Source of the DNA: Alphaproteobacteria bacterium
GTDB lineage: Bacteria > Pseudomonadota > Alphaproteobacteria > Sphingomonadales > Sphingomonadaceae
Reading direction: 5' to 3'
Assembly: GCA_005883305.1 (NCBI GenBank)
Contig: VBAC01000001.1
Coordinates: 186,001-250,000 of the forward strand
DNA length: 64,000 nucleotides
Shown here: positions 10,291 through 45,082 of the stretch, piece after piece
Position numbering within the stretch: the first letter of the stretch is position 1
Layout of the letters: each line of letters opens with the position of its first letter
The notes under the pieces: model-generated
What the model saw: only the letters and a program-made list of their open reading frames with translations
Told to the model about the DNA's origin: nothing
Database searches by the model: none
Made by a program: the position numbers and the translations under genes

Positions 10291-10364
10291 TGCCCGATCG
10301 TCTAATGGTAAGACTACGGACTCTGACTCCGTCAATCGAGGTTCGAATCCTCGTCGGGCATCCA
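10291..10364 (+). tRNA. tRNA-Gln (anticodon CTG)
   Basis: A full cloverleaf can be drawn. The acceptor stem TGCCCGA pairs with TCGGGCA, the D arm is GTC-TAATGGTAA-GAC, and the anticodon stem ACGGA/TCCGT encloses CTCTGAC with anticodon CTG. The T stem CGAGG/CCTCG carries TTCGAAT. The 3' CCA is encoded at 10362-10364. The anticodon reads CAG (Gln). It lies between the divergent ppx and the next plus-strand gene. Confidence 0.96.
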
Positions 10365-43025: not shown

Positions 43026-43880
43026 ATGTCCACCTACACGATCGACACGGCGACCAGCCGCGCCACGCCGACGCCTTCGCCGGGCAAGCGCCTCACGGCG
43101 CCGGCGATCCTCGCGCGCAAGGGCAAGGAGCCGATCGTCGCGCTCACCGCCTACACGATGCGCATGGCGCAATTGCTCGATCCGCATTGCGATTTCCTGC
43201 TCGTCGGCGATTCCCTCGGCCAGGTGATCTACGGCCTGCCGTCGACCATCCCCGTGAGCCTGGAGATGATGTGCGCTCACGGCGCGGCGGTGGTGCGCGG
43301 CTCGTGGCACGCCCTCGTCGCGGTGGACATGCCGTTCGGCTCCTACGAGGAGAGCCCGGCCCAGGCCTTCCGAAGCGCTGCGCGGGTGCTCAAGGAGACC
43401 GGCGCTGCGGCGGTGAAGCTCGAGGGCGGGGAGGCGATGGCCGAGACGGTGGCCTTCCTGACCAGGCGCGGAATCCCGGTGATCGGCCATGTCGGGCTGA
43501 CCCCCCAGGCGGTCAACGCGCTCGGCGGCTACCGCGCCCGGGGAAAGGACGAGGCGGAGGCGGACAAGGTCCTTGCCGACGCGCGCGCCGTGGCCGAGGC
43601 CGGCTGCTTCGCGCTGGTGATCGAGGGCGTGATGGAGGAGATCGCCGCGGAGGCGACCAAAGCGGTCCCGTGCCCGACCATCGGTATCGGCGCCTCGGCC
43701 GCCTGCGACGGGCAGATCCTGGTCACCGAGGACATGATGGGGATGTTCGAGCGCACGCCCCGCTTCGTGAAGCGCTTCGGCGATCTCGCCTCCGAGATCA
43801 GCCAGGCCGCCGCGGCCTATGCCGAGGACGTGAAAGGTCGGGCCTTCCCGACCGAAGAACAGATTTACCGCCGCAAATGA
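43026..43880 (+). CDS. panB: 3-Methyl-2-oxobutanoate hydroxymethyltransferase
   Basis: This is the first committed step of pantothenate synthesis, moving a hydroxymethyl group from methylene-THF to alpha-ketoisovalerate. The 284-aa protein has the TIM-barrel signatures: [30 protein letters not shown] (Mg-binding Asp), [31 protein letters not shown], and the catalytic Glu region [11 protein letters not shown]. Length and start fit the family. A GC hairpin at 43887-43907 (GCCCCGTC/GACGGGGC) follows the stop and may end the transcript. Confidence 0.95.
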
Positions 43881-43909: not shown

Positions 43910-44179
43910 AGAGTTCAAACCCAGTCCCCGCAATGGTCGTGATCGCCCGGAGAAGGCCGCCGGCAAGGCGGATGGCGCGGGCCGGGCTGGTTGCCCGGAC
44001 GAGCCGTCCAACGCAGCCGGCGGCCTTCTCCGGGCGACCCCAAAGGGGCGGGCGGCTTTTGGGCCAGGGCTACGTCGCAGCGTCGGTCACGATGCGTTTA
44101 GCATCGCTCCCTCCTCGCTCCTTGCCCTGACCCAAAATCCGCTCCGTCACGGCCGTTGCGGGGACTGGGTTTGAACTCT
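43910..44179. other. Three-armed inverted-repeat element, possible structured RNA or MITE-like element
   Basis: The ends are exact inverted repeats (43910-43933 with 44156-44179, starting AGAGTTCAAACCCAGTCCCC). If G-U pairs are allowed, the helix continues inward to about 43943/44146, giving some 34 bp. Inside are two further arms. One is a perfect 21-bp helix (43944-43964 with 44016-44036) capped by a CCGGGC/GCCCGG hairpin. The other is a 19-bp helix with two mismatches (44052-44070 with 44124-44142) capped by a CGATGC/GCATCG hairpin. A CCCC-AAA-GGGG mini-hairpin lies at the junction. There is no ORF, and it fills most of the 446-bp gap between panB and the next gene. Confidence 0.55.
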
Positions 44180-44326: not shown

Positions 44327-45082
44327 TTGGCGCTCAAGCCGAACGACGCTGAAACCTTTCTGAAGGAGGTGGACGACGAGCTCCGCCGCGAGCAGATGGG
44401 CAACTTCCTCAAGCGCTACGGCTGGTGGCTCATCGCGGCGTTCGCGCTTCTTCTCGCCGCGCTCGGCGGCTGGATCTGGTGGAAGGAGCACAGCAAGGCG
44501 GTCGCCGGCGTCCAGGGCGAGACCCTGACCGCGGCGCTCGACAGCCTCGAGGCCGGCAACCGCAACGCGGCGCTGCCCAAGCTGGCCGAACTCGCGAACA
44601 GCGACGTCCCCGGCTACCGGGCGGCGGCCTCGTTCGCCCGCGCCAACAGCGAGACTTCGGCCGGCAACGCGCCCGCGGCGATCGCAACCCTTCGCTCGAT
44701 CGCGGCCAACCAGGACTTCGACGAAATCTACCGCCAGGCGGCGATCGTGCGGCAGACCCAGCTCGAGTTCGACACGCTTCCTCCGCAGCAGGTGGTCCAG
44801 CGCCTGCGCCTGCTGGCGCGGCCGGGAAGCCCCTGGCTCGGCAGCGCGGGCGAGATGCTCGGAGTCGCCTATCTGAAGATGCACCGCGCGGACCTGGCCG
44901 GCCCGGTCTTCGCTTCGATCGGCCGGGATGAGAACGTTCCGCCTTCGATTCGCACAAGGGCCGTTCAGATGGCCGGCTCTTTAGGTATCAACGCCGTCGA
45001 CGAGCCGGCCGCGCCGGCAGCGGCCGCCCAGCCCGTCCCGGTCGCCCCGGCGCAGCCGGCGCCCGCCGCAACCAAGGAATAA
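44327..45082 (+). CDS. YfgM-like tetratricopeptide membrane protein
   Basis: This 251-aa inner-membrane protein starts at TTG 44327, eight bases after GGAG. It has a short cytoplasmic N-terminus (PNDAETFLKEVDDELRREQ), one membrane helix (WWLIAAFALLLAALGGWIWW), and a periplasmic helical-repeat domain with TPR-like units to about residue 220, then an Ala/Pro-rich tail. YfgM in E. coli associates with SecYEG and periplasmic chaperones. The order yfgM-bamB-der is the same as in E. coli, supporting the assignment. Confidence 0.85.
   Translation: MALKPNDAETFLKEVDDELRREQMGNFLKRYGWWLIAAFALLLAALGGWIWWKEHSKAVAGVQGETLTAALDSLEAGNRNAALPKLAELANSDVPGYRAAASFARANSETSAGNAPAAIATLRSIAANQDFDEIYRQAAIVRQTQLEFDTLPPQQVVQRLRLLARPGSPWLGSAGEMLGVAYLKMHRADLAGPVFASIGRDENVPPSIRTRAVQMAGSLGINAVDEPAAPAAAAQPVPVAPAQPAPAATKE

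Follow-up and report, generated by a model that had tools for sequence, protein, structure and literature searches.

The 270-bp palindromic element between panB and a TPR gene in the window (the whole stretch of 64,000 nucleotides that was analysed, from an alphaproteobacterial genome of the Sphingomonadaceae) is very probably a gene-less MITE of the IS5-family type. The account that best covers the observations as a whole, an IS5-type MITE with inward-facing hairpins as folded single strands, is probably correct. Transposons of the IS5 family are common in bacteria and are normally described as a gene flanked by terminal repeats; we know of no case in which a conserved folded single strand at each end accompanies a transposase of the IS5-family type. 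The first-pass annotation of this DNA had set selection on an RNA against a transposon origin. That opposition finds no support here, and both halves of it hold in a sense.

Table 1. Window positions of the element, its parts and the two neighbouring genes.
Feature	Position	Strand	Description
Whole element	43910..44179	.	270 bp; very probably a MITE of IS5-transposon type; one of at least seven copies in the genome, some partial
Left TIR, 5' side of closing helix P1	43910..43943	+	Perfect over 24 bp; about 34 bp if G-T pairs are counted
Right TIR, 3' side of closing helix P1	44146..44179	-	
Arm P4	43944..44036	+	Read as second subterminal hairpin; flank motif GGCAAGG..CGCAGCC on the plus strand
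Mini-hairpin P3 (CCCC-AAA-GGGG)	44038..44048	.	Helix 7 in the full-copy alignment
Arm P2	44049..44145	-	Paired with P4 as subterminal hairpin; its structure lies on the minus strand
Conserved hairpin apex, GGAGCGATG-loop-CATCGTGACCG, with tandem G.A mismatches	44084..44110	-	Exact pattern match
panB, upstream gene	43056..43880	+	PF02548, 344 bits; start position provisional
Downstream gene, TPR_21 (YfgM-like) protein	44327..45082	+	PF09976, 40 bits

The ends of the element are exact 24-bp inverted repeats (43910-43933 and 44156-44179), as had been claimed, and the MFE structure of the plus strand is the three-armed fold with a CCCC-AAA-GGGG mini-hairpin that had been described: a long closing helix encloses the arm P4, the mini-hairpin P3 and the arm P2, the limits of both arms being approximate (Table 1). 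This strand folds at -220.8 kcal/mol compared with -135.4 kcal/mol (sd 5.2) for shuffled sequences (z -16.5), and the minus strand folds at -214.5 kcal/mol (z -14.6); for either strand none of 200 shuffles was as good. Read by eye on the minus strand, the internal loops of P2 form a series of tandem G.A mismatches between Watson-Crick pairs. The P4 apex is a derived form in the window's genus and gives no match to the exact apex pattern; from its position and orientation, P4 appears to be the counterpart of the second hairpin in L155, L187, L244 and L250. P3, which is longer in the copies L005 and L011, may mark the place of a gene that was deleted between the two hairpins.

A covariance model of the hairpin, R1, matches 44058-44136 on the minus strand with 64.2 bits, the window copy being among the model's source sequences. 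In the window's ORF list no frame of at least 80 aa is confined to the 270-bp element. No Rfam 15 family matched the element at the gathering threshold, and a relaxed Rfam search returned weak unrelated matches only (best E 0.078). Elsewhere, a tRNA gene at 10291-10361 is the sole Rfam match at gathering level within the window.

The earlier reading of the element as MITE-like and mobile is borne out by its dispersed copies, by the empty spacer in relatives, by IS5-type parents and TIRs, and by target duplications in the family. A DNA search of its own genome gave 17 element matches in seven or more places, some of the copies partial. Across 60 genomes searched, 21 (own included) contain a match; most of these belong to the same genus and a few matches are weak. 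Plasmid and phage collections yielded no element match. The panB and TPR genes also adjoin in 24 further genomes of this genus, with a spacer of 121-260 bp, compared with 449 bp here, and the R1 model detects no hairpin at this locus in any of the 24. The window copy is best read as an insertion, because the spacers of the relatives are empty; 449 minus 270 falls within the empty-spacer range. The proposed copy count and check for target duplications gave at least seven copies in the genome and, within the family, duplications in most scored Bacteroidales copies and a partial pattern elsewhere, with no recognizable duplication at the window copy itself.

The window copy and a second copy from the same genome (L002, 1492-1761) have identical interiors (204/204), while their terminal arms agree at only 23 of 37 positions; the arms of each copy are fully or nearly fully paired despite their differing sequence. 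The identity of the interior together with the divergence of the arms indicates that interior and ends have separate histories, and the interior has perhaps spread by gene conversion. This pattern is odd for plain transposition and counts against a simple IS5-MITE account. Three other loci of this genome (L048 at about 2014, L049 at about 2025 and L050 at about 1933) carry the same TIR family (TAGGGTCCGTACTC) around a different interior, which consists of two inverted REP-like hairpins (GTCATCCCGGCGAAGGCCGGGACC); at L058 these TIRs surround almost no interior.

The hairpin extends far beyond the genus. The exact apex pattern was found in at least 120 stretches over GTDB genomes, and the matches listed come from Sphingomonadales, from a few further Alphaproteobacteria such as Aureimonas and Kiloniellaceae, from many Bacteroidales and from isolated members of other taxa. 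The core of the hairpin, in which tandem G.A mismatches lie between covarying pairs, occurs among these listed matches in Alphaproteobacteria, Bacteroidota and one genome of Actinomycetota, where Gordonia rhizosphera carries a clear element (L166). The Bacteroidales elements with this apex measure about 165-420 bp and have different terminal repeats (AGAGTATGTTTG.., AGAAACTGTTTAAA.., AGACCCCGTTCCCC..). Among the matches listed, 82 copies have a terminal repeat, and in 73 of these the apex lies 66-74 nt from the start of the element. Within the window's order, 18 of 296 genomes (own included) contain the apex pattern, with 45 matches in all and none for the reversed control; in a phylum sample of 398 genomes, the R1 model with stricter filters matched seven, six of them from the window's own family.

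Several pattern matches were set aside. The single match in viral contigs (L188) was taken as chance, no surrounding palindrome being found. L130 (Singulisphaera) and L164 (a Chloroflexi MAG) resemble coding sequence when inspected by eye, and are probably chance matches in genes; both were left out of alignment A2, which used 35 of the 37 picked sequences, and were kept in the counts over 102 hairpins. Two records titled Bacillus sp. 2B10 (L180 and L165) have element ends that resemble those of alphaproteobacterial copies (GAGCGGTTTCCG), which suggests a mislabelled or contaminated assembly.

Transposons that carry the hairpin were found in Bacteroidales only. A parent search that took its query from L221 and covered 297 genomes of one Bacteroidales family gave five elements of 1.06-1.27 kb (L242, L244, L250, L255 and L257). 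In each of them, IS5-type transposase sequence lies between two opposed R1 matches and a pair of TIRs, so that the layout reads TIR, hairpin, transposase sequence, opposed hairpin, TIR. L250 and L240 have stop-to-stop frames of 263 and 287 aa that score 142 and 167 bits, respectively, against the NCBIfam IS5 cut-off of 110; L240 has one R1 hairpin match only, and the transposase frames of L244, L255 and L257 are broken or partial. L176, L201 and L221 are deletion derivatives that keep both hairpins and remnants of the transposase. These remnants lie above the Pfam cut-off in L201 and L221 and below it in L176. L201 is a 649-bp remnant with an IS4/5-type transposase fragment between its two hairpins (DUF4096, 54.6 bits), and in L221 an in-frame fusion joins the N- and C-terminal portions of the transposase. 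A 2.1-kb candidate transposon, L087, was rejected; it spans non-transposase frames.

The window's genus contains an IS5 of 843 bp (L200) with PF13340 and PF01609 matches; its ends (CTAGGGTTAGGACCCATAA / CTAGGGTCGGGACTCATAA) are of the same TIR sequence type as those of the element, and the R1 model finds no hairpin in it. The Bacteroidales element L206 (1080 bp, 260 aa) likewise has the AGAGTATGTTTT TIR type in common and is without the hairpin. Six IS5-type loci, L200 included, gave no R1 match. Neither PF01609 nor PF13340 has a match in the genome of the window, so no mobilizing enzyme was found there; a matching autonomous element in the same genome is usual for a MITE, though not a requirement. 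The window element would be the final stage of such deletions. Its oppositely oriented arms P2 and P4 would descend from a parental pair of inward-facing end hairpins, and the element was presumably moved in trans by an IS5-family transposase.

Target sites differ between the two halves of the family. Among Bacteroidales copies, a full TNA..TNA duplication is present in 25 of 32 scored (9 unscored). Non-Bacteroidales copies have TNA..TNA in 3 of 49 scored and YTA..TAR in 20 of 49 (11 unscored), the latter pattern being absent from the remaining 29; one copy entered these non-Bacteroidales counts twice, as L044 from a genus genome and as L139 from a public Sphingomonadales record. All these target-site counts exclude 40 of the 122 apex matches, for which no terminal repeat was found within the script limits, many of them at contig ends. 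The neighbouring genes, whose orientations come from a crude ORF caller, show no preference around 37 Bacteroidales copies (++ 11, -- 12, -+ 7, +- 7). Around 27 non-Bacteroidales copies the upstream gene points toward the element in 19 (++ 10, +- 9, -+ 5, -- 3) and ends at most five bases from it in nine. Such close gene ends are expected if the target is the TA within YTAR, which is often a stop codon; the 19 of 27 would allow some connection with transcription of the upstream gene.

The fold changes in sequence and keeps its pairing. In 23 full copies, two-sided change was observed in 67 of 94 pairs, a number reached by none of 500 shuffles, and 96.0% of cells were paired, compared with 78.8% after shuffling and at most 46.0% in slid controls, on a structure derived from the same alignment. 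Two-sided change affects 22 of 24 pairs of the closing helix P1 (helix 1) and 16 of 21 pairs of P4 (helix 8). The nine-pair core of 35 diverse hairpins is 98.4% paired versus 87.4% when shuffled. Four of its nine pairs are invariant, and 12 of 500 shuffles match its number of two-sided pairs; its number of two-sided cells was matched by none of 500. For the pair between the two tandem G.A modules, 102 hairpins, which are related by descent, were counted: it is Watson-Crick or wobble in 96, against a mean of 51 and a maximum of 67 over 1000 shuffles. All four Watson-Crick types occur there (GC 49, AT 15, CG 14, TA 11), and the flanking G.A mismatches are nearly invariant (AG 92/102, GA 85/102). 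An RNA reading had been said to fail on random arm sequence with no covariation among homologues; covariation was found, and that reading is not refuted by this check.

The arms also distinguish their two strands. In stems outside the core, a strand-symmetric aligner counted 100 G.T against 17 A.C on the motif strand; 58 hairpins have more G.T and 7 have more A.C. In elements with two hairpins the G.T:A.C ratio is 15:1 in 14 left hairpins and 19:1 in 12 right hairpins, each on its own strand, and the excess therefore does not come from a mutation bias tied to the direction of the genome or of a gene. It may come from a mutational asymmetry that follows the orientation of the hairpin itself. 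The closing helix behaves differently. Its wobbles, from which the first-pass annotation had argued for RNA, are indeed present; however, on the P2 strand of non-Bacteroidales copies the helix leans the opposite way (A.C 58 versus G.T 30), an excess to which, we think, one conserved position contributes, and in Bacteroidales copies it leans to G.T (29 versus 9). The closing-helix wobbles are weak evidence for RNA because of that non-Bacteroidales lean; the informative asymmetry sits inside the hairpin arms. The compensatory changes together with the strand-specific tolerance of G.T indicate that the folded single strand seems to matter, and we consider it likely that such a strand, reading inward from each end, is under selection. 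The proposal of a structured RNA is supported in part, by the compensatory change and the strand-specific G.T; an independent non-coding RNA is not supported, given the lack of an Rfam family and of an orientation preference around 37 Bacteroidales copies.

The tolerance of G.T fits RNA and single-stranded DNA alike, and the hairpins could act in the latter form. Each element end would fold on its own strand, at a replication fork or in the course of strand transfer, and would be recognised there by the transposase or by a protein of the host, so that mobility would need the fold. The hairpins are kept in gene-less copies, suggesting a need in cis, and point in opposite directions at the two ends; DNA, too, tolerates G.T wobble and tandem G.A. 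DDE transposases of the IS5 type, however, act on double-stranded ends, and IS5 elements with similar TIRs exist without the hairpin (L206 in Bacteroidales, L200 in the same genus), so that we regard a role as single-stranded DNA as somewhat unlikely. If there were no selection on the fold, the palindromes could owe their perfection to templated mutation, through template switching in hairpins, or to gene conversion from one arm to the other. Such a process is suggested by outer arms that differ strongly between copies of the same interior and yet stay paired, and by closing-helix mismatches that, outside Bacteroidales, fail to favour the motif strand. It does not predict a G.T over A.C asymmetry tied to orientation, and correction would remove the tandem G.A mismatches that are conserved between covarying pairs in distant taxa; it is improbable.

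A slightly poorer chance is given to a regulatory RNA leader of the transposase gene that the MITEs merely inherited. One hairpin does lie upstream of the transposase frame, in sense, in L240, L242, L250 and L255, and leader structures control other IS genes, as in ISPpu9 (PMC8450116). Against this, the left and right hairpins of two-hairpin elements both have a G.T excess on their own strand, which makes one of them antisense to the gene. The fold is also kept in copies that have no gene, and the leader is thereby refuted as a complete explanation. As an independent non-coding RNA or a cis-regulatory element of the neighbouring genes, the element would account for the strong structure and covariation and for the upstream genes that run toward it and stop close by outside Bacteroidales. 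Its absence from the locus in 24 relatives, the target duplications in the family, the even gene orientations around the 37 Bacteroidales copies and the lack of an Rfam family all speak against this, and we hold it to be very improbable.

Three further readings of the hairpin were dropped on inspection by eye. A possible start codon within it (GGAGG..ATG) is followed by frames that show no conservation, and ATG is missing from several hairpins of the right end. No U-run, as an intrinsic terminator would have, follows the hairpins. The 3-nt bulge that a kink-turn would have ahead of the G.A pairs is absent.

For the selected hairpins of an IS5-type MITE, we tentatively favour a putative function as an RNA shield over a role as single-stranded DNA, while considering this function itself short of probable. 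The parent would have consisted of a TIR, an inward-facing hairpin, the transposase gene, a second inward-facing hairpin and a TIR; on deletion of the gene, the two hairpins and the TIRs would fold into the three-armed structure. Where a neighbouring promoter transcribes into the element, the hairpin would most likely form the first part of the resulting RNA. There it would protect the end of the element against read-through from either side, in gene-less copies as well. It is possible, at somewhat less than an even chance, that one class of DDE (IS5-family) transposons and their MITEs, found in three phyla of the sample, relies in its life cycle on a conserved, cis-acting folded strand, RNA or single-stranded DNA, that always reads inward at each end. 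A hairpin that is conserved across distant taxa, is kept without the gene and is constrained on opposite strands would imply a new cis-acting step, in which the element is protected from transcription or one of its folded ends is recognised.

Among known systems, the family is closest to IS5-family insertion sequences (NCBIfam NF033580 transpos_IS5_3; Pfam DUF4096 and DDE_Tnp_1) in the transposase of its hairpin-bearing parents, its TIR type and its TNA/TA target pattern, and differs in the paired inward-facing G.A hairpins just inside its ends. The TIR and target pattern presumably resembles that of the IS1031/IS427 subgroup. REP/BIME palindromes are dispersed intergenic hairpins in inverted pairs, like the present element; the present family differs from them by its TIRs, target duplications and IS5-type parents. 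The IS5-derived MITEs of Porphyromonas gingivalis (BrickBuilt, MITE464/PgRS and MITE239) are likewise gene-less Bacteroidales elements with IS5-like TIRs (e.g. GAGACTGTTGCA), with around 10-20 copies per genome; the interiors of BrickBuilt and MITE464 are tandem repeats, and the passages that deal with them describe no paired hairpin module (PMC4596501). Transcripts of Correia/NEMIS, ERIC and Coxiella QMITEs fold and may be RNase III substrates or alter mRNA stability; these are different elements, and the passages devoted to them mention no cross-phylum hairpin module or covariation test (PMC10969869). PMC9769881 concerns another MITE. In the open-access papers searched we met no description of the hairpin module and found no report of MITE covariation, and the papers listed for the motif strings were unrelated, as judged by title and the start of the abstract.

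The R1 model can annotate palindromes of Sphingomonadales and Bacteroidales genomes that otherwise have no explanation. Near one such MITE copy, in a Bacteroidales MAG, lies a Cobalamin riboswitch (L126, 7139-7391). At the other extreme of size, two loci (L058 at about 616-662 and L053 at about 1109) hold bare terminal-repeat hairpins of about 46-60 bp almost without interior, apparently the smallest derivatives.
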